From NCBI RefSeq assembly GCF_003290025.1, contig NZ_QNHG01000002.1, positions 1,186,976 to 1,250,975 of the forward strand: a DNA stretch of 64,000 nucleotides, in the 5' to 3' direction. A program made the translations under genes and the position numbers. This stretch comes from Pseudogemmobacter bohemicus. GTDB lineage: Bacteria; Pseudomonadota; Alphaproteobacteria; Rhodobacterales; Rhodobacteraceae. Shown here piece by piece: positions 541-10,488 of this stretch (the first letter of the stretch is position 1; each line of letters starts with the position of its first letter). The notes under the pieces are model-generated. The model ran no database searches. It saw nothing but the letters and a program-made list of their open reading frames with translations, and was not told where the DNA came from.

Positions 541-757
541 GGCACCGGCCTCCGGCAACTGATCAGGGGCCACTGGCCACGATAGCGGCAGCGATAGCAG
601 AAAACCCCAGGGCGCGAAATAGCGGGACACCTGCCGAAAACGTTGTGGACACCCGGAAGTGGTTCGTGACCCAGTGCGAGCGAGCTGGTGTCCCGGAGCA
701 TTTCACCGCGTCCATTGTCGGGCATCAGTCGGCAAGGTCGGAGAATCGCATGACCTA

Positions 758-1607
758 GGTCGTGTTGACAAAAGGGATTCCGCTGGCATTCGTCCTATGA
801 TTCAAGCTCATCTCTACGTGGGAGATGAACTTGGCACGCAACCTGATATCCGACGACGAGTGGACCTTCTTCGAGGGCTTCATTCGTGCCGTCCGGCACC
901 CTAACGGGCGGAAACCTGCGGACCATCGTCTTGTTCTCGATGGAGTTTTCTGGATCGCAAGGACTGGTGCGCCATGGCGTGATCTGCCCGAAGAGTTTGG
1001 CAAGTGGTCCTCGGTCTACCGTCAGTTCCGCCGGTGGACTTTGGCGGGACTGTGGGAGGATATCCTGGATGCGCTGAACCACGCTGGGATCGCGCCAGAC
1101 AAGCTCCAGATGGTCGACAGCACTGTGATCCGCGCTCATCATCATGCTGCGGGCGCAAAAGGGGGACTCCGAAAGAGGCTCTTGGCGTTCGAGAGGTGGC
1201 TTCTCGACCAAGATCCATCTCCGCGTCAATGGCGCAGGCCTCCCGATGAGGACTGAGATCACGCCGGGGCAGGTTTCCGACTACACCGGCTATGATCTGG
1301 TGATGGCCGACAACCTGCCGCAGCCAGCAGTTCTGGTCGCCGACAGGGGCTATGACTCTGATAAAATTCGGGAAGACATCGAGAACCGCAACGCCCTGCC
1401 CATGATACCGATGCGAAAGAACCGAAGGGTGCGCAAGGCTGTCGACATGACCATCTACACCCTGCGCAACATGGTCGAGCGCTGCTTCAACAAGCTGAAA
1501 AACAGCCGTCGGTTGGCAACCCGCTACGACAAAACCGCAGACAGTTTCCTCGGCTTCGTAGACGTTGCCTGCATCAGGCTATGGCTTCGCCATTTGTCAA
1601 CATGACC
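758..1607 (+). mobile_element. IS5-family insertion sequence (IS427-like), 850 bp
   Basis: The element starts GGTCGTGTTGACAAA at 758 and ends TTTGTCAACATGACC at 1607. These are terminal inverted repeats of 15 bp with one mismatch. It is flanked by TA on both sides (756-757 and 1608-1609), the two-base target duplication usual for this group. The uninterrupted second copy of the host module at about 3352-3366 gives the empty site, so the boundaries are exact. It carries a two-frame transposase and has inserted inside an integrase remnant. Confidence 0.93.
825..1605 (+). CDS. IS5-family transposase made by frameshifting (orfA/orfB)
   Basis: Frame A (825-1256) begins MNLARNLISDDEW and carries the first catalytic aspartate in LQMVDSTVIRAH. 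The rest lies in the +1 frame: it carries GGFSTKIHL, the second aspartate in VLVADRGYDS and the glutamate in NMVERCFNKLK, and stops at 1603-1605 inside the right terminal repeat. The frames meet at an A4G5 run near 1157-1165, a likely slippage site; skipping one G joins AKG to DSERGSW. The DDE triad is complete across the two parts, so the element may still be mobile. Programmed slippage is inferred from the family; a simple one-base mutation is the alternative. Confidence 0.88.
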
Positions 1608-1678
1608 TACGGCATCTATTCCGCCGGGATCAGCGATGAGCAAAAGCGGGAGATCGTGGAGCGGGTGGGGCTTCCGCC

Positions 1679-1867
1679 ATGCCATTGATTCCCGACATTG
1701 ATGCTTTCGAGGAAAGGGCCGCTATCATGCAATATGATGGCGGTCTTTCTCGTTCTATGGCTGAGGATCACGCTGCGCAGGCACAGGGCTTCCGGGATGC
1801 GGCACATTTCCGGGAGGTTCTGGCCGAGTATGTCCTGAATCGCAGACTGGGGGGCGGGCATGACTGA
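1679..1867 (+). CDS. Small conserved protein overlapping the integrase 3' end, copy 1 (62 aa)
   Basis: The ATG at 1679 overlaps the last codons and stop of the integrase remnant (TGA at 1686-1688), and the stop overlaps the next gene by 8 bp. The protein is acidic and helical in character, with EERAAIMQYDGGLSR followed by alanine-rich helix residues. The paralogue at 3431-3619 differs at only 4 of 62 residues, which points to real coding. I do not recognise a function. Overlap with an integrase suggests a role in the same element, for example a recombination accessory factor, but nothing in the sequence proves it. Confidence 0.65.
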   Translation: MPLIPDIDAFEERAAIMQYDGGLSRSMAEDHAAQAQGFRDAAHFREVLAEYVLNRRLGGGHD

Positions 1868-2135
1868 ACCCTATCCTCTGGTGCAGCGAGATGGGCGCTG
1901 GTGGTTGCCCTATGGCCTGGAGGTTGATGGCGAACAGTTGGCAGGCCTCTGGATGTCCGACGGCGACGTGGTGTTCCTTGGCCCGGAGGGCGGCAGCTTT
2001 GCCTATCGGGTGGATGAGAACGGGGCAGAGCAGGTCAGGCTCGACTACGGGGTCTGGCGGGCAATCCCTGATGATCTGGCAGACTGGCAACAGGAGGTTT
2101 TCCGGCTGGTCCGGGACGCGCTCGATAACATGTGA
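1860..2135 (+). CDS. Hypothetical 91-aa protein of the integrase module, copy 1
   Basis: It starts at an ATG 8 bp inside the preceding gene, so translation is probably coupled. The sequence is rich in aromatic and acidic residues (QRDGRWWLPYGLEVD, FLGPEGGSFAYRVDE), suggesting a small beta-rich soluble domain with a C-terminal helix ending VRDALDNM. The second copy at 3612-3887 is about 89% identical in protein (10 differences in 91), keeping length and frame. No signal peptide or membrane segment is visible. I recognise no family. Confidence 0.6.
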   Translation: MTEPYPLVQRDGRWWLPYGLEVDGEQLAGLWMSDGDVVFLGPEGGSFAYRVDENGAEQVRLDYGVWRAIPDDLADWQQEVFRLVRDALDNM

Positions 2136-2160
2136 TCAACCCTCGGCGGCTTCGGTCGGC

Positions 2161-2370
2161 GGCAAGGCTGAACTGCGCCAAGCCGGCGTGTCCGAGTTTC
2201 TGACCACCTTTGGCGAGGGCGTGAGCAACAATGCGGTGTTTCTGCTGCGGTGGGTGCCGGGCGTTGCCGTTGCCGACCGGATTATTCACGGCGGCAAGGT
2301 CTGGAACATTGTCGCTATTGCCGAGATCGGGCGCAGGAAGGGCATCGAATTGCGGGCGGTGGCGGCATGA
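2161..2370 (+). pseudogene. Phage head-closure (head-tail adaptor) protein, C-terminal fragment
   Basis: The frame read from about 2161 gives AELRQAGVSEFLTTF, VFLLRWVPGVAVADRI and WNIVAIAEIGRRKGIELRA. This resembles the C-terminal half of the small head-closure/adaptor proteins of tailed phages, which typically end in a similar IGRRxGxEL motif. No start or N-terminal half is present: the sequence is joined to the end of repeat copy 1. Its TGA overlaps the start of terS (ATGA), as expected of an intact phage operon, so truncation was on the left side only. Confidence 0.65.
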
Positions 2371-2759
2371 GCAAGCACCTTCGCGGCGTGAAGCCGGGCC
2401 TTGCTGCGGATGCCGAGGCGCTGACCAGAGCACCAGCCGCGCCCGCTTGGCTGACCAGCCATGCCAAGGCCGAGTGGCGGCGCATCATGCCGCAACTGAT
2501 CGCCCGGCAGGTTATCACAAAGGCCGATCTGGCGGGCATCGAGAACTATTGTGTGGCGGCGGGCGCAGTTCGCCAGATCGCGGATATTCTTGCGCTGAAC
2601 CCGATCCCCGACCTGAAACTGGCGGGGCTTCAAATCCGCTATGCGCAGACCGCCCGCCAGCTTGCCGCCGAATACGGGCTGACCCCGACCAGCCGGGCGA
2701 GGATTGGTTCTGCGCCGGAACCCGAGGATGACACCGACAACCCGCTGGCGGTGGCGTGA
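2367..2759 (+). CDS. terS: Phage terminase small subunit (P27-like)
   Basis: A 130-aa protein starting MSKHLRGVKPGLAADAEAL, with PAWLTSHAKAEWRRIMPQL and NYCVAAGAVRQI, the layout of P27-family terminase small subunits that bind the phage genome end and hand it to the large subunit. The ATG overlaps the stop of the adaptor fragment, and its TGA overlaps the ATG of the terL stub. The gene itself looks complete, but its partner is destroyed and no portal or capsid gene follows, so it is an orphan in a prophage remnant. Confidence 0.78.
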   Translation: MSKHLRGVKPGLAADAEALTRAPAAPAWLTSHAKAEWRRIMPQLIARQVITKADLAGIENYCVAAGAVRQIADILALNPIPDLKLAGLQIRYAQTARQLAAEYGLTPTSRARIGSAPEPEDDTDNPLAVA

Positions 2760-2932
2760 TGACTGGCAGCACCTTCCCGGCGTGGATTTATGACGGATCA
2801 CCGATCCCTGACCCTCTCGGGCATGGGGAACGCGCTGTCACCTTCCTGCGCCGCTTGAAGCATCCGAACAGCACGGCACCACGCCGGGGCTTCCAGCTTC
2901 ACGGCTGGCAGGGTCTTGCTGGCGCAGGATGA
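2759..2932 (+). pseudogene. terL: Phage terminase large subunit, N-terminal stub
   Basis: The first 50 codons (FPAWIYDGSPIPDP, GHGERAVTFLRRLKHP, RGFQLHGWQ) match the N-terminal adaptor-motif region of HK97-type terminase large subunits. After GWQ at about 2911 the similarity stops and a TGA follows at 2930-2932. The DNA from 2913 on encodes the catalytic end of an integrase in another frame. The ATPase and nuclease domains are therefore absent. This is a deletion or recombination joint between a packaging gene and an integrase gene. Confidence 0.8.
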
Positions 2933-3440
2933 TCCCCGCATTGGCGATGTCCTGACCTTCTGCCTGCTGACCGGGATGCGGGCCGGTGAGGCGGTGGGTC
3001 TGGTCCGGGGTGATCTGGTTTGGAAGGGCAATCTCGGCTGGTTCGCCTGGATACGTCCCAACGAGGTCCGGTCTCTGAAGACGGATGCGGCGGAACGGTT
3101 TATTCCGCTGCACTCGGCTCTTAGCCCTCTGCTCGCCCGACTGCCTGGACAGGGGCGGTTGTTCCCTGACCTGACCGTGTCGATAGTCACCAAGCGGTTT
3201 GCATCGCTGCGGGCCACTCTGGGGCTGTCCCGTCCCGGCGTCGTCTTCCATTCGACCCGGAAGTGGTTCGTGACCCAGTGTGAACGGGCGGGTGTCCCGG
3301 AGCATTTCACCGCATCGATTGTCGGCCACCAGTCAGCAAGGTCGGAGAATCGCATGACCTATGGCATCTATTCCGCCGGGATCAGCGACGAGCAGAAGCG
3401 GGAGATTGTGGAGCGGGTGGGGCTGCCACCATGCCATTGA
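2913..3440 (+). pseudogene. Tyrosine recombinase/integrase, 5'-truncated, catalytic domain kept
   Basis: About 175 codons of a phage-type integrase are open from the terL joint to the TGA at 3440. All catalytic positions can be seen: first arginine in LLTGMRAGEAVGL, histidine and second arginine in HSTRKWF, histidine in SIVGHQS, and tyrosine in MTYGIYSAG. The arm- and core-binding N-terminal domains are missing. The only candidate start is a TTG at 2916, so it is probably dead, though an isolated catalytic domain could conceivably be made. It overlaps the following small gene by 10 bp. Confidence 0.85.
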
Positions 3441-3619
3441 TTCCTGACATTGATGCTTTCGAGGAAAGGGCCGCTATCATGCAATATGATGGCGGTCTTT
3501 CTCGTTCAGTCGCTGAGGATCGGGCAGCACAGGCGCAGGGCTTCCAGGATGCGGCACATTTCCGGGAGGTTCTGGCGGAGTATGTCCTGAATCGCAGGTT
3601 GGGGGGCGGGCATGATTGA
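3431..3619 (+). CDS. Small conserved protein overlapping the integrase 3' end, copy 2 (62 aa)
   Basis: Paralogue of the 1679-1867 gene with four substitutions (M27V, H31R, R39Q and one synonymous-rich stretch around them); the core EERAAIMQYDGGLSR is unchanged. The start lies within the integrase end and the stop overlaps the next gene by 8 bp, so the three frames are probably co-translated. Function is not recognised. Confidence 0.65.
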   Translation: MPLIPDIDAFEERAAIMQYDGGLSRSVAEDRAAQAQGFQDAAHFREVLAEYVLNRRLGGGHD

Positions 3620-3887
3620 ACCCTACCCTCTGGTTCAGCGAGACGGGCGCTGGTGGCTGCCCTATGGCCTGGAGGTCGATGCCGAACAACTGGCTGGCCT
3701 CTGGATGTGCGACAGCGACGTCGTGTTCCTTGGCCCGGAGGGCGGCAGCTTTGCCTACCGGGTGGACGAGGACGGGGCAGAGCAGGTCAGGCTCAACTAT
3801 GGAGTCTGGAAGGCAGTCCCCGATGTTCTGGCGGACTGGCAGCAGGAGGTTTTCCGGCTGGTCCGGAAGGCGCTCGACAATATGTGA
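3612..3887 (+). CDS. Hypothetical 91-aa protein of the integrase module, copy 2
   Basis: Second copy of the 1860-2135 gene, starting MIEPYPLVQRDGRWW. The differences between copies are mostly mild substitutions with no frameshift. The stop at 3885-3887 is followed within 25 bp by the shared boundary of the duplicated module. Function is unknown. Confidence 0.6.
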   Translation: MIEPYPLVQRDGRWWLPYGLEVDAEQLAGLWMCDSDVVFLGPEGGSFAYRVDEDGAEQVRLNYGVWKAVPDVLADWQQEVFRLVRKALDNM

Positions 3888-3993
3888 TCAACCCTCGGCG
3901 GCTTCGGTCGCCGGGGAACCCCTTTTCTCTCTTTTTCTGCTTGGGGCGGGGGGAGGTAGTACCCATCTAAGGGGCCTCGGTAACAGCTACGGA

Positions 3994-4011
3994 GGTTAGG
4001 TATAGGTAATG
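3994..4011 (+). repeat. Left arm of an 18-bp inverted repeat around the polymerase-like gene
   Basis: GGTTAGGTATAGGTAATG reads the same, with one mismatch in 18, as the reverse complement of 5633-5650. The arm ends exactly on the ATG of the 533-aa gene and covers most of the space between GGAGG (3991-3995) and the start. A protein bound here would block translation initiation or transcription; alternatively these are element ends. No clear target duplication is visible outside the arms. Confidence 0.75.
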
Positions 4012-5610
4012 ATAGATAAGGGTGGATGGGACCACAGGATACCCAGCCCACACGACGATTGGGAACCCTCGTCCTCGGGGACACCCAGAGAAGACAGCCT
4101 GGAGGAGGTTGTCCAGGAGAAGAAAGAGAAGGCAATCGCCAACCCGTGGTTCTCAAGGCCGCTGGATGTGCATCGGTGGTCGGATCACGCGGAACTTGTC
4201 GCGGTGGTTGATCAGGTCTGGAACGAGCACTGCAGCGACTTTGATCGGTCACGCGGGGGTGGACCCAAGCCGAAATGTGCTTTCCGGGGCCAGTTGAGGA
4301 TCCTGCTGTTGGACCTTTACGTTGCCTGGCTGGAAAACCCGAACCTGTCGATCGGCGTGGCAATGTCACAGAACAGCTGGGATGCCTGGTCCCGCTACAA
4401 TAAGCTGGGCATCTCGAAGAAGATCGTCCAGTTGATCCACCGGCTGGTGGAGAGGGGACTGATTGACGAGGCCAAGGGTAGCTACAGCGGGCCTTATGCT
4501 CCGGGCAACAGAACAACGAGGATCAGGGCTGCGGAACCGTTACGGGCGATGTTCCGGGAGTTACAGACGAGCCGGAACGACGTGCATCAGGTCGTCGGGC
4601 AGGAATGTATCATCCTGAAGGCGGGTGATGGCGAGGAAGCGAAGTATCAGGAATACGATGATACCGAAGAAACCCTGCGGATGCGGGCGGAGCTGGAAGC
4701 CTATAACACGCTGATCGCGGATAGTTTCATCGACATTCCCACCCTCTCCGACCCCTGGATCACCCGGAGCGACAAGTTCGGCAAAGAGGCCAGAGTCCCG
4801 ATAAACCATCATCACCAATTCACCCGTCGGATTTTCAGCCGGGGGTCATGGAAGCTGAACGGGCGGTTCTATGGTCCGTGGTGGCAGCAGGTTGGCAAGG
4901 AACTCCGGGAGCGTATCTTCATCAACAACCGGCCCACGGTAGAGGTCGACTTCAAGGGGCTGCACCTTGCGATAATTGCGGCAAAACAGGGGGTCAGGGT
5001 TGTCGATGACCCCTATGAACTGCCGTCGAGAACTGTGCCTGACGTTGACAAGAGGCAGCAGCGGGAGATCGTGAAGCAGCTGGTCCTGACAGCCCTTAAC
5101 GCCCGGACGGAGAAGGCGGCCTTCAGCAGCTTCCGCGATGGCTGGCCCGCCGGTCACAGGGCTAAGGGGCTGACCAACAAAGAGCTTTCTTGTCTTCTTT
5201 CTCTCTTTTCCGAGAAGAACCCTTGGGCCAAATCCTCTCTTGGGGCTGACGTGGGGATCGGCCTGATGAACCTCGACTCACAGATTGCGGAACGAGTGCT
5301 GGGTCACTTCACCCGGAAAGGAATACCTGTTCTTTGTATCCATGACAGCTTCATCATCGACTATGGTTATGCCGGTGAGTTGCGGGCGGTCATGGCGGAG
5401 GCCTCTGAGGCCGTGGTGGGTAAGCCTTTGGCCTTAGATGGGAAAGCGGGGCTGGACGACTATCTTTCTGACAGTCCTCGGTACATCGTTCGTGACTATG
5501 TTGGCTACAAACGTAGGGGCTGTTGCGAGGCCTATAGAGACCGTCGCAGGGCGTGGGAGGCTCTTAAGGGAAGAAGGGTGGGGGCGAGGAGGAGGAACGA
5601 GGTGTCCTGA
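4009..5610 (+). CDS. Protein with winged-helix-like N-terminus and family-A polymerase-like palm motifs (533 aa)
   Basis: Residues 92-155 look like a winged-helix domain (YNKLGISKKIVQLIHRLVERG). After a linker come GRFYGPWWQ (285-293), then VEVDFKGLHLAIIA (311-324), which resembles motif A of family-A DNA polymerases and T7-type RNA polymerases with D314 as metal ligand. REIVKQLVLTALNA (352-365) resembles the O-helix (R352, K356), and VLCIHDSFIID (441-451) resembles motif C with the HDSF spelling of T7-like RNA polymerases. No 3'-5' exonuclease domain is present. The likely role is replication initiation or DNA synthesis for a mobile element. The motif match is by eye and the function is inferred. 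The gene is bracketed by inverted repeats and seems less GC-rich than the chromosome. Confidence 0.65.
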   Translation: MIDKGGWDHRIPSPHDDWEPSSSGTPREDSLEEVVQEKKEKAIANPWFSRPLDVHRWSDHAELVAVVDQVWNEHCSDFDRSRGGGPKPKCAFRGQLRILLLDLYVAWLENPNLSIGVAMSQNSWDAWSRYNKLGISKKIVQLIHRLVERGLIDEAKGSYSGPYAPGNRTTRIRAAEPLRAMFRELQTSRNDVHQVVGQECIILKAGDGEEAKYQEYDDTEETLRMRAELEAYNTLIADSFIDIPTLSDPWITRSDKFGKEARVPINHHHQFTRRIFSRGSWKLNGRFYGPWWQQVGKELRERIFINNRPTVEVDFKGLHLAIIAAKQGVRVVDDPYELPSRTVPDVDKRQQREIVKQLVLTALNARTEKAAFSSFRDGWPAGHRAKGLTNKELSCLLSLFSEKNPWAKSSLGADVGIGLMNLDSQIAERVLGHFTRKGIPVLCIHDSFIIDYGYAGELRAVMAEASEAVVGKPLALDGKAGLDDYLSDSPRYIVRDYVGYKRRGCCEAYRDRRRAWEALKGRRVGARRRNEVS

Positions 5611-5632
5611 CTTCCTGTTCTTTCTTCTTCTC

Positions 5633-5650
5633 CATTACCTATACCAAACC
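5633..5650 (-). repeat. Right arm of the 18-bp inverted repeat
   Basis: CATTACCTATACCAAACC, 17 of 18 complementary to 3994-4011, lies 23 bp after the stop of the polymerase-like gene and 25 bp before the stop of the convergent KAP gene. The two arms are 1.6 kb apart. Confidence 0.75.
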
Positions 5651-5674
5651 AAAGACATATCCAGTACAGAGACT

Positions 5675-7126
5675 TTAATCCGCCAGAATACTCTGGACAC
5701 CGTCGAGCATCGCTCGGTGTGAGGGGATGTAGGTCGGACCTAGACCTTTAAGGACTTTGTACCATTCATGGGAACTACGCTGCCCAGCTTGTGGTGAAAG
5801 CTGATACATCTCCTCCGCTAAGTCGACAAGTTCTGGGCATGCATCTCCTACAAAGGATCGGCATCGTTCAAATGCCTCACCAAGTTGTTGCCTGTCAAAG
5901 CCGCTCTGAGCGAACTCAAAGCCATCCATCAGTCTTTTAGCCCCTTCGGGTGTAAGGCTCGATCGTTTCAAAAGTGCGGATGGCAGAGACAAATGCTTGC
6001 GTGTACGCTCGGGCGCCACATCTGAAAATGCCATAAGCACAAGTAATGACGGATCAATTGGCACTCCTCTGTAGATCCTTGCCACCAAGTCTACCCTCTC
6101 AATGGTCCGCTTGATCTGCCGGAAGGAAAAGCCGCTTTGCTTTACTATTTCCTTGGAAAGCGTGGCTGCGGCTTCAACAGAGAAGTGCTCACTCTGCCCG
6201 AAAGAAATAGCAATCGGGATCTGCCGAACCAACTCTGCGGTGGCGAGCCCTTGTATCTCCGGGCTGGTTCGCAATGCGAGACGAAGGTCGACGAACTTAT
6301 CAAGATATAACTCATCTCCCTCTCTGGGTCCAAAGCGATGCCTGGCGATGTTCTCAAGGTAGTGAGGATTGACCATGAGGCAGAAGACGAATCCATTGCG
6401 CCCAAAGACAAGTTTCATCGCTTCAAGCAGGGCGATTGCGTATTCCGGGTGACAGCGGTCAAGCTCATCAACGATAATGATGATCCGGTCAGATGCCGCG
6501 CCTTCGGTGAGTGCGTCGCGCAGCTTGTCGATCTGGATTGGCAGCTCCTCGATGCGAGCGGTCTCTGCTGCGAGGTGTGTAGCGATCAGTTGGTATGCGA
6601 CTTTCGACATACCTGTCTCAAGTTCTTCGACTGCTTTGTCCAGGCCACCGATGTCAGGTGTTTGCTCCTGAACCCAGTCTGAGACAGCCCCCAAAACCAC
6701 ATCAGCACCACTGCGAAGAACAGCACGGGTAAGTGAGCGGGCTGCAATTCCGGCAATCTTCAGGGAGCCGTCTTTCAGGGTCTTCGCCAGTGGCTTGCCC
6801 GATACTGGCTGAGCTTTCAGGAGCGCGCCCATGAAGGTGATAATTGGATCGTCTGTGCGGTCTGACTGCTGCGCGTCAATCTCAATGACCAACTCACCTG
6901 AGGCGCGGAGCTGTTGAGCCCAGGCGCGACGGAAGAAGGTTTTACCGTGCCCAAACCCCGCCTCGATCGAAATGACCTTTGAGTCGTCGATGGATTTGAT
7001 CAGGCTGGTAAACGTGTCCCCGATCGCGGCATAGCCGAGACCGTCGTCTTTCCAAGGGGACACAGCGCCTTCAAGGTCTTTCATCTGCTCTGCTCCTGTC
7101 AGTCCAAAGACAACCTTAGGTGTCAT
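5675..7126 (-). CDS. KAP-family P-loop NTPase (possible phage-exclusion or defence gene)
   Basis: A 483-aa protein with Walker A GFGHGKT (57-63) near the N-terminus and Walker B IIIIVDELDRC (215-225), followed by HPEYAIALLEAMKLVF, the arrangement of KAP NTPases. Between the two Walker motifs is a hydrophobic alanine-rich stretch (about 110-160), but no strong paired membrane helices like those of membrane-bound KAP proteins. Known family members include PifA-type phage-exclusion proteins and ATPases of Qat-type defence operons. The gene stands alone, convergent with the polymerase-like gene, and its start is 170 bp from tRNA-Gln. No strong Shine-Dalgarno precedes the ATG. The defence role is inferred from family and location. 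Confidence 0.8.
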   Translation of the reverse strand: MTPKVVFGLTGAEQMKDLEGAVSPWKDDGLGYAAIGDTFTSLIKSIDDSKVISIEAGFGHGKTFFRRAWAQQLRASGELVIEIDAQQSDRTDDPIITFMGALLKAQPVSGKPLAKTLKDGSLKIAGIAARSLTRAVLRSGADVVLGAVSDWVQEQTPDIGGLDKAVEELETGMSKVAYQLIATHLAAETARIEELPIQIDKLRDALTEGAASDRIIIIVDELDRCHPEYAIALLEAMKLVFGRNGFVFCLMVNPHYLENIARHRFGPREGDELYLDKFVDLRLALRTSPEIQGLATAELVRQIPIAISFGQSEHFSVEAAATLSKEIVKQSGFSFRQIKRTIERVDLVARIYRGVPIDPSLLVLMAFSDVAPERTRKHLSLPSALLKRSSLTPEGAKRLMDGFEFAQSGFDRQQLGEAFERCRSFVGDACPELVDLAEEMYQLSPQAGQRSSHEWYKVLKGLGPTYIPSHRAMLDGVQSILAD

Positions 7127-7193
7127 CAGGATTTTCGCAAGCAGAGGACAAGCGGATATCTTCTAGCGATGGCTTCCCCGGTGGGGCATTCCC

Positions 7194-7219
7194 TGGGGCA
7201 GTCCGGCCCCACTGCCCCA
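7194..7219 (-). terminator. Possible hairpin terminator downstream of tRNA-Gln
   Basis: TGGGGCAGT and ACTGCCCCA form a perfect 9-bp stem with an 8-base GC-rich loop, about 80 bp beyond the 3' end of the tRNA. No T-run follows on the minus strand, so termination is uncertain. Confidence 0.35.
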
Positions 7220-7296
7220 ACCCGTCAACAGCCCAACCCCTTGCCCGCATTCGGTTTCCCGCTTGCGGCTGGTCTGCTCAACTGTCAGAGGAAGAT

Positions 7297-7371
<75 letters not shown>

Positions 7372-7446
7372 ACCGTGAGCGGGTGTTTAGCGAAGCCTCT
7401 TGCAGGCTGCAAGAGGGGTTATGAAGGAAATTTGGCGGGAGTTATC

Positions 7447-8634
7447 ATGGCCGGGACATGGGATGTCATCGTGCTCGGGGCCGGTGCTGCGGGAATGTTT
7501 GCGGCCATCGAGGCGGGGCGGCGTGGCCGGCGGGTGCTGGTGGTCGAACATGCGGCAAATCCGGGTGAGAAGATCCGCATCTCGGGCGGCGGGCGCTGCA
7601 ATTTCACCAATACCGGTATCGGGATTGAGAATTATCTCGGGCAGAATCCGCGATTTGCGCTTTCGGCGCTGAAACGGTTCACGCAATGGGATCTGGTGGC
7701 GCGCCTTGATCAGGCGGGCATTGCCTGGCATGAAAAGACGCTGGGGCAGTTGTTCTGCGATGGCTCGGCAAAGCAGGTTGTCGCCTGGCTGGCTGGCGAA
7801 ATGCGGGCGGCGGGGGTGGAGCTCTGGCTCTCAACCGAGCCGGGTGAGGTTACGCGCGCGGGCGGCGGGTTCCGCGTTGCGACGCCGCGCGGGGTTCAGG
7901 AGGCGCGGGCGCTGGTGCTGGCGACCGGCGGCAAGTCGATTCCGAAAATGGGAGCGAGCCCCTGGGGTTACCGGGTGGCGGAGAGTCTTGGGCTGAGCGT
8001 GACCGCGACGCGGCCGGCGCTGGTGCCGCTGACTTTCGCCGAACAGGAACTGGTCTGGATCGCGCCGCTGGCCGGGGTCTCGGCGCCGGTGCGGGTCAGG
8101 TGTGGGGTGGGGCGGTTCGATGAGGCGATGCTCTTCACCCATCGCGGGCTGTCGGGGCCGGCCATCCTGCAGATCTCCAGCTATTGGCGCGAGGGAGAGC
8201 GGATCTCGGTCGATCTGATGCCGGGCGCGGAGAGTGCCGCCGGGTTTGCGGCGCTGCTGAAGGCTGCCAAGCGCAAGGGCGGGCGGATTTCCCTGGCGCA
8301 AGCACTGGCCGGGGCGCTGCCGGAGCGGCTGGCGAAACATCTGGGCCAGGCCGTGCCGGGACCGCTGGCCGAGATGTCGGATGCAAAGCTCGACCAGCTG
8401 GCGGCGGGCCTGCATGACTGGCAGCTGATGCCGGTCGGCTCGGAAGGCTATCGCACCGCCGAGGTGACGCTGGGCGGCGTCGATACTGGCGGGCTGGACG
8501 CCAGGACGATGGAGGCGAAAACGGTCCCGGGCCTTTATGTGGTGGGGGAGCTGGTGGATATCACCGGCTGGCTTGGCGGCTATAACTTCCAATGGGCCTG
8601 GTCTTCGGGCTGGGCGGCGGGGCAGGTGGCCTGA
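7447..8634 (+). CDS. HI0933-like (YhiN-type) FAD-dependent oxidoreductase
   Basis: The ATG at 7447 opens MAGTWDVIVLGAGAAGMFAAIEA, an N-terminal Rossmann FAD-binding motif. RISGGGRCNFTN follows, the signature of the HI0933/YhiN flavoprotein family. The end carries GLYVVGELVDITGWLGGYNFQWAWSSG in pieces, the conserved C-terminal FAD contact. Length (395 aa) fits. The frame is open further upstream, across the tRNA gene, but that part is not protein-like. The substrate is unknown. The gene is single and ends at a strong terminator hairpin. Confidence 0.85.
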   Translation: MAGTWDVIVLGAGAAGMFAAIEAGRRGRRVLVVEHAANPGEKIRISGGGRCNFTNTGIGIENYLGQNPRFALSALKRFTQWDLVARLDQAGIAWHEKTLGQLFCDGSAKQVVAWLAGEMRAAGVELWLSTEPGEVTRAGGGFRVATPRGVQEARALVLATGGKSIPKMGASPWGYRVAESLGLSVTATRPALVPLTFAEQELVWIAPLAGVSAPVRVRCGVGRFDEAMLFTHRGLSGPAILQISSYWREGERISVDLMPGAESAAGFAALLKAAKRKGGRISLAQALAGALPERLAKHLGQAVPGPLAEMSDAKLDQLAAGLHDWQLMPVGSEGYRTAEVTLGGVDTGGLDARTMEAKTVPGLYVVGELVDITGWLGGYNFQWAWSSGWAAGQVA

Positions 8635-8652
8635 ACGCCGCTGCGGCAAAGC

Positions 8653-8682
8653 AAAAGGGCGGCCCCGCAAGGCCGCCCTTTT
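8653..8682 (+). terminator. Bidirectional intrinsic terminator
   Basis: AAAAGGGCGGCC and GGCCGCCCTTTT form a perfect 12-bp stem with a 6-base loop. A T-run on one strand and an A-run on the other serve the convergent flavoprotein and kpsE-like genes. Confidence 0.9.
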
Positions 8683-8709
8683 AATCTGCGCGGGTATTCT
8701 GTTCGGGCC

Positions 8710-10488
8710 TCAGGAAGAGACCTGTTCCCGCAGGATTGCCACCGTCATCGAGATCATCAGATAGATGCCGATCAGGATCAGCAGCGTCACAAGCGTATTT
8801 TCGAACACGCGCGGATAGGTCGGCACATCGGGCGGCACCGGTTCGACCGAGATCGACAGATAGCGGGTCTGGCTGTTCGCGGCCATCCGTGCGGTCTCCT
8901 TGGCCTGGAGCGATTGCGCCAGCATCATCTGCCGCGTCTCGACATCGGCCTGGGCCAGGCGCAGCTGACCCTGGATCTGCGCGAGCGAGATCTCTCCGCC
9001 CTGGCCTTCGGTCAGTTTGGTGCGCAGCATTGCGATTTCGGCTTCAAGCGTGGCGATGCGACGCTTGACCGGCTCCAGCCGGGCGGCATTGGGATTGGCA
9101 TTCGCCTCCATCTGCGCCAGCGCCAGCCGTTCCTGGATCAGCTGGCTGTCCAGCGTGCCGATCTGGCTGGTCAGAAGCGTCAGCTCGGTCTCGGAATTGA
9201 GGACCTTGAACTGTTCCTGCAGCGTGATGACCTTTTCCTGCGCCGCCAGCAGCGCGGTCTCGGCATCCTGATAGCTCTCATCCGCACCCGCCATCGCATC
9301 CTCGCGCAGGCGGTAGGTCAGCTGGTCGACCTGTTCTTCGGCATAGCCGATCAGCTGTTTCGACCAGTCGACCGAAAGCTGCGCATCGGGCGAGATCGCC
9401 TCCATCCGGATGATGCCCTCGGACGGATCGTAGGAGATCAGGATATGCGATTTGTAAAGCTTATAGGCGTCTTCCAGCGAGGCCTCGGGGGGCAGGCGCA
9501 GGATCGGGTCGATCGCATCACCCATGAAGGCCGCGCGGAAGCCGATATCGTCTTCCAGCCGCATCATCGCCTCACGCGATTGCAGATAGCCCTGCACCGC
9601 GATGGAATCCTGCGAGGTGGCCAGCGATGTGCCCTGCAACATGCCGCCAAGCGCGCCGCCGGCCTGCGGGCTTTCCGCCTTATGCACCGCGAATTCCGAT
9701 TTGGTGCCATATTGCCTTGTGGCGACCGACGAGAAATACCAGCCCGCGATCAGCGTCGGCAGCAGCACGAAGATGAACATCCGCACGAACAAGAGCGCCA
9801 GCTTGCGGCGGCGGCGCTTCGCGATGTCCTGCTGCATGCGCAGGATCTCGGCGGCATGGTTCACCTCGACCCTTTGTTCGGTCGAGGGAACCTGGATAGG
9901 CTTGACCGTCTGCGGCAGTTTCACCCCATCGCCCGGCAGCGGCGACAAAGCGCGCCCGGTTCCCGCTTTGCCGCCACCACCACCGCCATCGGCGGCAGTG
10001 GCGAGGCCCGTGCCTGTACCCGTGCCGGGCTCGGCCGCGACCAGATCCAGCATCGAGCCGCGCTCGAACGGGTTGATTCCGGCGGCACGCAGCAGCCGCA
10101 CCGCGTCATAATCCGAGGTTGCCGGCATATTATGGCTTTGCGCCAGGCGGCGGGCGGTGCGCAATTGCCGCCCCGTCAGCCCCTCTTTGCGGATCGCGGC
10201 CAGTTCCTTCGCGACCGGATCATTCTCGTCGACACCGGCATCGCCGCCCTCCGCATCGGCGGGCCGTTTCGCTGCGCCGCTGTCGGCAATGGCGCTTTTC
10301 AGCGCGGCACTGCCCACCGGGCCGCCTGCGGTTTCAAATTTCTGATCGCCGAAACCGTCTTCGGGATTGTCGAACAGCATCTCGCCCGGCGCCGGTTTGG
10401 GAACGAGAACAGGCCCCGGGCGGGGTGCTGCTGCGGCGGGGATGTCTTGGCGGCGGATGTTGAACCGCGCGGCCTTAAGCATAGTCAT
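8710..10488 (-). CDS. kpsE: Capsule polysaccharide export inner-membrane protein, KpsE-like
   Basis: A 592-aa protein with a long cytoplasmic proline/glycine-rich N-terminus, a membrane helix near LALLFVRMFIFVLLPTLIAG, a periplasmic coiled-coil region (AQEKVITLQEQF, AMEANANPNAARLEPVKRR-like heptads), and a C-terminal helix LVTLLILIGIYLMISM. This is the two-helix topology of polysaccharide co-polymerase/KpsE proteins, which connect the ABC exporter to the outer-membrane channel. The N-terminal extension with GLTGRQLRTARRLAQ is typical of Rhodobacterales members. The start is either ATG 10488 or 10482; both overlap the end of the kpsT-like gene, so translation is coupled. No kpsM neighbour is present. 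Confidence 0.8.
   Translation of the reverse strand: MTMLKAARFNIRRQDIPAAAAPRPGPVLVPKPAPGEMLFDNPEDGFGDQKFETAGGPVGSAALKSAIADSGAAKRPADAEGGDAGVDENDPVAKELAAIRKEGLTGRQLRTARRLAQSHNMPATSDYDAVRLLRAAGINPFERGSMLDLVAAEPGTGTGTGLATAADGGGGGGKAGTGRALSPLPGDGVKLPQTVKPIQVPSTEQRVEVNHAAEILRMQQDIAKRRRRKLALLFVRMFIFVLLPTLIAGWYFSSVATRQYGTKSEFAVHKAESPQAGGALGGMLQGTSLATSQDSIAVQGYLQSREAMMRLEDDIGFRAAFMGDAIDPILRLPPEASLEDAYKLYKSHILISYDPSEGIIRMEAISPDAQLSVDWSKQLIGYAEEQVDQLTYRLREDAMAGADESYQDAETALLAAQEKVITLQEQFKVLNSETELTLLTSQIGTLDSQLIQERLALAQMEANANPNAARLEPVKRRIATLEAEIAMLRTKLTEGQGGEISLAQIQGQLRLAQADVETRQMMLAQSLQAKETARMAANSQTRYLSISVEPVPPDVPTYPRVFENTLVTLLILIGIYLMISMTVAILREQVSS

Follow-up and report, generated by a model that had tools for sequence, protein, structure and literature searches.

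The gene at 4009-5610 of the window (the whole stretch of 64,000 nucleotides of Pseudogemmobacter bohemicus DNA that was analysed) appears to encode the polymerase that replicates a small integrative element. The enzyme would be of the TV-Pol type and would probably also carry out priming. In the reading favoured here, which as a whole we regard as fairly probable, a tyrosine integrase would insert the element at the 3' end of tRNA-Gln, and two 18-bp repeats, termed M sites, would serve as the element's own cis sites and as inward-facing starting points. The winged-helix-like N-terminal region of the polymerase would bind M, and the enzyme would begin purine-rich strands from it while replicating the free circle. 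The circular form in a number of relatives would carry two inverted copies of the attachment site (attP), each made up of an I-arm, a 17-nt core and an M-arm. These copies would divide the circle into two invertible halves, one with the replicase and one with the integrase, a design known from the 2-micron plasmid of yeast.

The following features of the window were used in the analysis.
648-1685, plus strand: further integrase remnant (residues ~381-440), interrupted by an IS5-family element at ~755-1609
2910-3437, plus strand: truncated tyrosine integrase that retains roughly residues 266-440 of 440 and lacks the N-terminal part
3612-3887, plus strand: 91-aa open reading frame, located after the integrase remnant and before the left M site
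3994-4011, plus strand: left M site, GGTTAGGTATAGGTAATG, ending on the ATG, facing inward, conserved in relatives
4009-5610, plus strand: TV-Pol-type family-A polymerase gene, 533 aa, with D314, R352/K356 and H445/D446; ATG inside the left M site
4012-4033, plus strand: purine-rich tract 3' of the left M site, as after M in 41 non-redundant sites
5611-5632, read on the minus strand: purine-rich tract 3' of the right M site, on the same basis (41 sites)
5633-5650, minus strand: right M site, GGTTTGGTATAGGTAATG, facing inward, conserved in relatives
5675-7126, minus strand: KAP-family P-loop NTPase gene (PF07693, 1.9e-26), between the right M site and tRNA-Gln
7297-7371, minus strand: tRNA-Gln(ttg), the integration target, with its 3' end towards the polymerase gene
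7297-7313, minus strand: last 17 nt of tRNA-Gln, corresponding to the att core of relatives

The polymerase gene in the window is open and its catalytic residues are kept. The motifs lie where the sequence-only reading had placed them, with VDFKGLH from V313, REIVK at R352-K356 and IHDSF from I444. The 533-aa protein was assigned to no family by Pfam (cut-off E 1) or NCBIfam (cut-off E 10). In agreement with the sequence-only reading, Pfam gave no exonuclease domain, and PDB sequence searches gave no match. The PHROGs match was phrog_4756, of unknown function (4.2e-46). An AlphaFold model built from 52 aligned sequences had a mean pLDDT of 86.7 and a pTM of 0.85. Comparison of this model with the PDB using Foldseek gave 71 matches at E 0.001 or better, and all 50 that were listed of these 71 were family-A DNA polymerases. 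The best E value was 2.2e-5 and the TM scores were 0.22-0.30, indicating that the match covers part of the polymerase chain only. In the viral library the top matches were phage proteins, mostly unnamed, with one named DNA polymerase (Rheinheimera phage Barba31A). The sequence-only reading had likened the palm to those of family-A DNA polymerases and T7-type RNA polymerases; the first of these was confirmed by the predicted structure together with the residues described below. A T7-type enzyme as the closest fold was not favoured, as T7-like RNA polymerases were absent from the 50 listed of the 71 PDB matches, and a single DNA-directed RNA polymerase appeared among the viral-library matches, at rank 47 (E 7.1e-4).

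Conservation was measured in two alignments. The first, A1, contained 27 of 53 rows of open reading frames (P0001 standing for L001), the rest being pieces or further close relatives, and the second, A2, contained 52 rows: 43 of 48 viral reading frames (L096, L111, L112, L116 and L119 were dropped), eight genome rows and P0001. R286, D314, R352, K356, H445 and D446 were invariant in both; D314, K356 and D446, whose conservation had been proposed as a check, were thus kept in 27/27 and 52/52 rows. D334 was invariant in A1 and fell outside the 90% list of A2. The winged-helix-like N-terminus suggested earlier fits the predicted order of helix 61-79, helix 92-109, strand 114-117, helix 138-148 and strands 152-155 and 170-174. 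The thumb had been described as lacking; in the AlphaFold model a single long helix, 220-237, precedes the palm and could form part of a thumb, which in TV-Pols consists of two antiparallel helices.

These features are those published for the TV-Pol family by Iyer, Abhiman & Aravind in 2008 (PMC2579912), to which the protein was likened through the description of the family in the accessible part of that paper. There the TV-Pols are a minimal superfamily-A polymerase core without a nuclease, with a conserved hairpin arginine, two aspartates and an RxxxK motif. A subset occurs in mobile elements together with lambda-type integrase genes, the species aligned include Paracoccus denitrificans, Roseovarius nubinhibens and other Rhodobacterales, and the family was predicted to comprise primase-polymerases of replicative elements. 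In the present protein the two palm aspartates are D314 and D446, the beta-hairpin arginine before the palm is R286 (in strand 284-288 of the model), the fingers contain R352 and K356, and the conserved aspartate is D334, in A1 only. Pfam matched no nuclease domain in it, and the integrase context consists of integrase remnants in the window and of long open integrases in relatives. The kind of enzyme was therefore already known, and the layout, of which the sequence-only reading knew no characterised example, is covered by the family description. The accessible part of the paper describes neither M sites nor insertion at tRNA-Gln nor inverted attP, and the terms 'inverted repeat', 'tRNA' and 'linear' were absent from its main text in a term search (PMC2579912). 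The window polymerase also differs from the published TV-Pols in that no adjoining helicase gene was found; in other elements a helicase replaces the polymerase.

The polymerase or part of its gene was present in 47 of 394 genomes of the family at E 1e-5, not always at tRNA-Gln. Viral contigs gave no match with the single protein as query and 52 polymerase loci with an alignment as query. Relatives of the polymerase were seen in 227 phage records (Rheinheimera 115, Vibrio 92, Aeromonas 14, and others) and were annotated 'hypothetical protein' among the matches listed. Some phage genomes have them at two or three places (L016, L087/L098, L093/L112), and two viral contigs hold two each.

The M sites match each other at 17 of 18 positions, and the left site ends on the start codon, both as noted from the sequence alone. 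The pair was detected by a pattern search and by a separate scan, and was missed by a general repeat finder. These two sites were the sole matches at three mismatches or fewer in the 64 kb, with none in 100 shuffles, and a 17/18 match was not reached in any of 300 mononucleotide shuffles of the two flanks of ~100 bp (best 14). In relatives the motif is GGTATA[A/G]GTAATG followed by a purine tract, and the consensus over 41 non-redundant sites is ggggAATAGGTATAAGTAATGGAtaagaagg. After the ATG, purines occupied at least 75% of these sites at 17 of 20 positions; as the 41 sites were picked by the motif, the flanks alone are independent evidence. M (TATAAGTA) may resemble the yeast mitochondrial promoter, a likeness to which no weight was given here.

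When a 15-base form of M was searched for in the 394 family genomes, 27 matches were obtained in 17 genomes, compared to one for a reversed control. All 27 adjoin either the tRNA-Gln 3'-end core or the polymerase gene, whole or in part. In 21 of them the 17-nt core (up to one mismatch) is no more than 430 bp away, and the remaining six are beside the gene or a piece of it. M was 3' of the core and in the same orientation in 20 of the 21, the exception being G289, where it is on the wrong side. A polymerase match (1e-5) was found in 12 of the 17 genomes; G111, G112, G212, G289 and G353 have M and no polymerase match at this threshold, and in three of these, G111, G112 and G353, the contig ends near M. 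Close homologues also carry M pairs, which was a further check proposed with the earlier reading, and wherever M stands on both sides of the gene at one locus the two sites face inward (9/9: the window, L002, L005, L006, L052, L053, L054, L055 and one unit of L066 with the gene in pieces). The third base of the M core motif, G or T, tracks the polymerase tree with two changes, compared to a shuffled mean of 5.4 and none of 500 shuffles as low; close relatives among the 22 labelled rows contribute to this agreement. Within 300 bp of 66 genes of phages and distant chromosomal relatives, no inverted repeat was clearly above controls (best 14, control maximum 13).

The sequence-only reading had suggested a replication initiator-polymerase for a small integrative element, with the repeats as binding sites or as ends. 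A replicative role with the repeats as binding sites is close to the reading favoured here; M as an element end was rejected. The ends are tRNA-Gln cores, the 17-nt tRNA 3' end lying beyond M by 91-360 bp in most relatives and by more in L002, L011 and the window (1.6 kb).

The replicase is exchanged in some elements. In G416, G442, G409:C18, G344 and G434 a DUF5906 primase-helicase replaces the TV-Pol; the DUF5906 scores were 4.8e-22, 4.3e-22 and 7.9e-21 in the three proteins scanned, and the other two were found by tblastn. These proteins are akin to DNA primases in PHROGs, and that of G416, whose gene is followed by an HNH-like gene, matched PDB entry 6k9e, 'Primase', at 3.9e-9, an entry that we take to be NrS-1. 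M was absent from all of these loci at up to one mismatch. G409 contains two kinds of element whose arms are 96.7-97.6% identical over their first 209 bp, and M is located 66 bp past this shared stretch in the TV-Pol element only. The loci lacking M and the G409 pair together indicate that M goes with the TV-Pol and not with the integrase, with the one exception of W01 (P. versutus pBEN), which has the polymerase and no M at up to one mismatch. No start site for TV-Pols is given in the accessible part of the family paper (PMC2579912). M, which is common to polymerases of about 50% identity and missing where the polymerase has been replaced, is thus a concrete candidate.

It is also conceivable that M is a promoter or regulatory site, the inverted copy being a mere duplication of the att arm and inversion having no role in replication. 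In the window, L002 and L004 the left M and the start codon overlap, several further loci have M upstream of the polymerase gene, and chance recombination can yield inverted duplications at tRNA islands. However, a scan of 3850-5800 for sigma-70-type promoters, the only type covered, gave no match at either M, the right M faces the 3' end of the gene, and M was not found where the TV-Pol has been replaced, which makes a purely regulatory role unlikely in our view.

Many relatives occur at tRNA-Gln in other Rhodobacterales, several with an integrase nearby. The core has two sides, with an M-arm 3' of CCA and either the tRNA body or an I-arm 5'. In five genomes, G408, G048 and G296 with TV-Pol and G416 and G442 with primase-helicase, the order is tRNA, core (+), M-arm, replicase, M-arm, core (-), I-arm, integrase, I-arm, core (+), which is the order expected from an integrating circle with two inverted attP copies. 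The M-arms and I-arms are 334 bp (100%) and 278 bp (100%) in G408, 430 bp and 136 bp (both 100%) in G048, 443 bp (98.4%) and 286 bp (82.5%) in G296, 537 bp (97.4%) and 221 bp (100%) in G416, and 356 bp (98.6%) and 367 bp (88.8%) in G442. The far core of G408, the genome of L006, was predicted by this model and then found outside L006. The orientations of replicase and integrase relative to the tRNA are (+,+) in G408 and G442, (-,-) in G296, (+,-) in G048 and (-,+) in G416, so that all four possible isomers occur across five genomes of different species. The elements that lack an inverted core, namely those of G405, W01, the window and G434 and the first one of G254, are all (-,-); that of G434 spans two contigs whose join was assumed.

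Over their first 130 nt the two I-arm copies are 88-100% identical within each of the five genomes and 48-78% identical between genomes; G408 and G442 have I-arms at 78% and integrases at 95% identity. Being alike within and unlike between genomes, the copies were either kept alike or made separately. Of the genomes with double attP, all but G442 are drafts or a metagenome bin; the G442 contig measures 3,536,096 bases, the whole genome being about 3.6 Mb in size, which makes a short-contig artefact unlikely there. An empty site was looked for on the right-hand side, where the sequence beyond the tRNA differs among the relatives tried; on the left side the similarity of G443 to G408 and G442 stops 7 nt after the core. 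Two relatives fit neither form cleanly and are decayed forms: G085, with a direct pair of cores, polymerase (+) and no integrase found, and G087, which is in fragments. The inverted-attP architecture looks new, no description of it having been found in the accessible parts of open-licence PMC papers.

The exact core TCCTACCRCCCCAGCCA was present in 248 of the 394 family genomes, mostly once. Both orientations were on one contig in seven genomes (G048, G050, G254, G289, G296, G339 and G344) and on separate contigs, which is uninformative, in six more. In the genus of G408 the core TCCTACCACCCCAGCCA was present in 69 of 84 genomes, with both orientations on one contig in four (G408, G409, G416 and G442). 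These counts are lower bounds, as variants such as the core of the window were left out. Direct copies of the 17-nt core on one contig numbered five in G045:C10 and three in G184:C1, which are perhaps stacked elements.

Inversion of the halves would be driven by the integrase; a flip through homologous recombination of the repeats is also conceivable. A linear replicon or self-synthesising transposon was the initial idea: the inverted repeats would be terminal, the ends would carry the tRNA-Gln 3' sequence, and the TV-Pol would copy the element from end to end. In some loci the inverted repeats are indeed perfect, and they share a common outer end, the 17-nt tRNA 3' end, and their inner ends vary, reaching into one or the other end of the polymerase gene. 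This model fell back on the second set of inverted arms, the I-arms, around the integrase half beyond the inverted core, and on the third core, which is directly oriented. Both follow without further assumption from a circle with inverted attP but not from linear ends, and we therefore consider a linear element distinctly improbable.

The yeast 2-micron plasmid encodes a tyrosine recombinase and contains two identical inverted repeats of ~600 bp, holding the recombination site, that separate two unique halves and give two circular isomers. It is nuclear, does not integrate and is copied by host polymerases. The likeness lies in the two inverted copies of a recombination site that halve the element in five relatives, though not in the window, and in both orientations of each half being seen, here between genomes of different species. 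Unlike the 2-micron plasmid, the present elements sit in tRNA-Gln and carry their own replicase. Pipolins and casposons also combine their own DNA polymerase with a recombinase or integrase and insert at tRNA genes; their polymerases are of family B, and we know of no inverted attP pair in them. We tentatively propose, as an idea with rather less than an even chance of being right, that the elements are a bacterial counterpart of the 2-micron plasmid. Inverted attP would surround exchangeable replicase halves (TV-Pol with M, or a primase-helicase), the integrase would both integrate the element and flip it during replication to raise copy number, and the TV-Pol would start at M. If true, inverted attP would mean that the 2-micron design arose a second time, independently, in bacteria and joined to integration, and recombination-driven amplification would become testable in a tractable host.

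A further reading is that the polymerase is a defence or phage-remnant gene with no part in element replication. In its favour, a P27-type terminase small subunit gene, the KAP NTPase and truncated integrases are nearby, polymerase relatives occur in phages, and a defence role is raised for PolA-SSB primases in the discussion of PMC10061031. Against it, the polymerase occupies the replicase half, and its place is taken there by a primase-helicase in other elements, which argues for a role in replication; we consider this reading very improbable. PolA-SSB primases, in the accessible part of the same paper, are A-family polymerases of an integrative element, SCC, for which primer-independent synthesis with a partner protein is reported from earlier work (PMC10061031). 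They differ from the present system in belonging to Bacillota, in being associated mostly with serine recombinases and in having a helicase in the same operon, and no flanking M-like sites are described for them in that part of the paper (PMC10061031).

The window itself looks like a single-attP form with a truncated integrase. No other core within two mismatches was found in the 40 kb searched, so the interpretation of invertible halves rests on the relatives, and with its integrase truncated the window element is probably immobile without help. The KAP NTPase gene is likely to be cargo; a weak KAP match (28%) is also present inside the G442 element. A second copy of the 91-aa reading frame, 89% identical, is at 1860-2135, and the region 650-3890 contains the remains of two related elements in tandem (each an integrase end with the 91-aa reading frame), 91% identical over 562 bp, the first split by the IS5-family element and followed by the P27-type terminase small subunit gene. 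In L009, two tandem tRNA-Gln genes whose starts are 216 bp apart are located at the element boundary (1101-1391). In L014 (P. versutus pBEN), a perfect inverted repeat of 1082 bp, at 6299-7380 and 8404-9485, lies downstream of the polymerase and is possibly a pair of insertion sequences.
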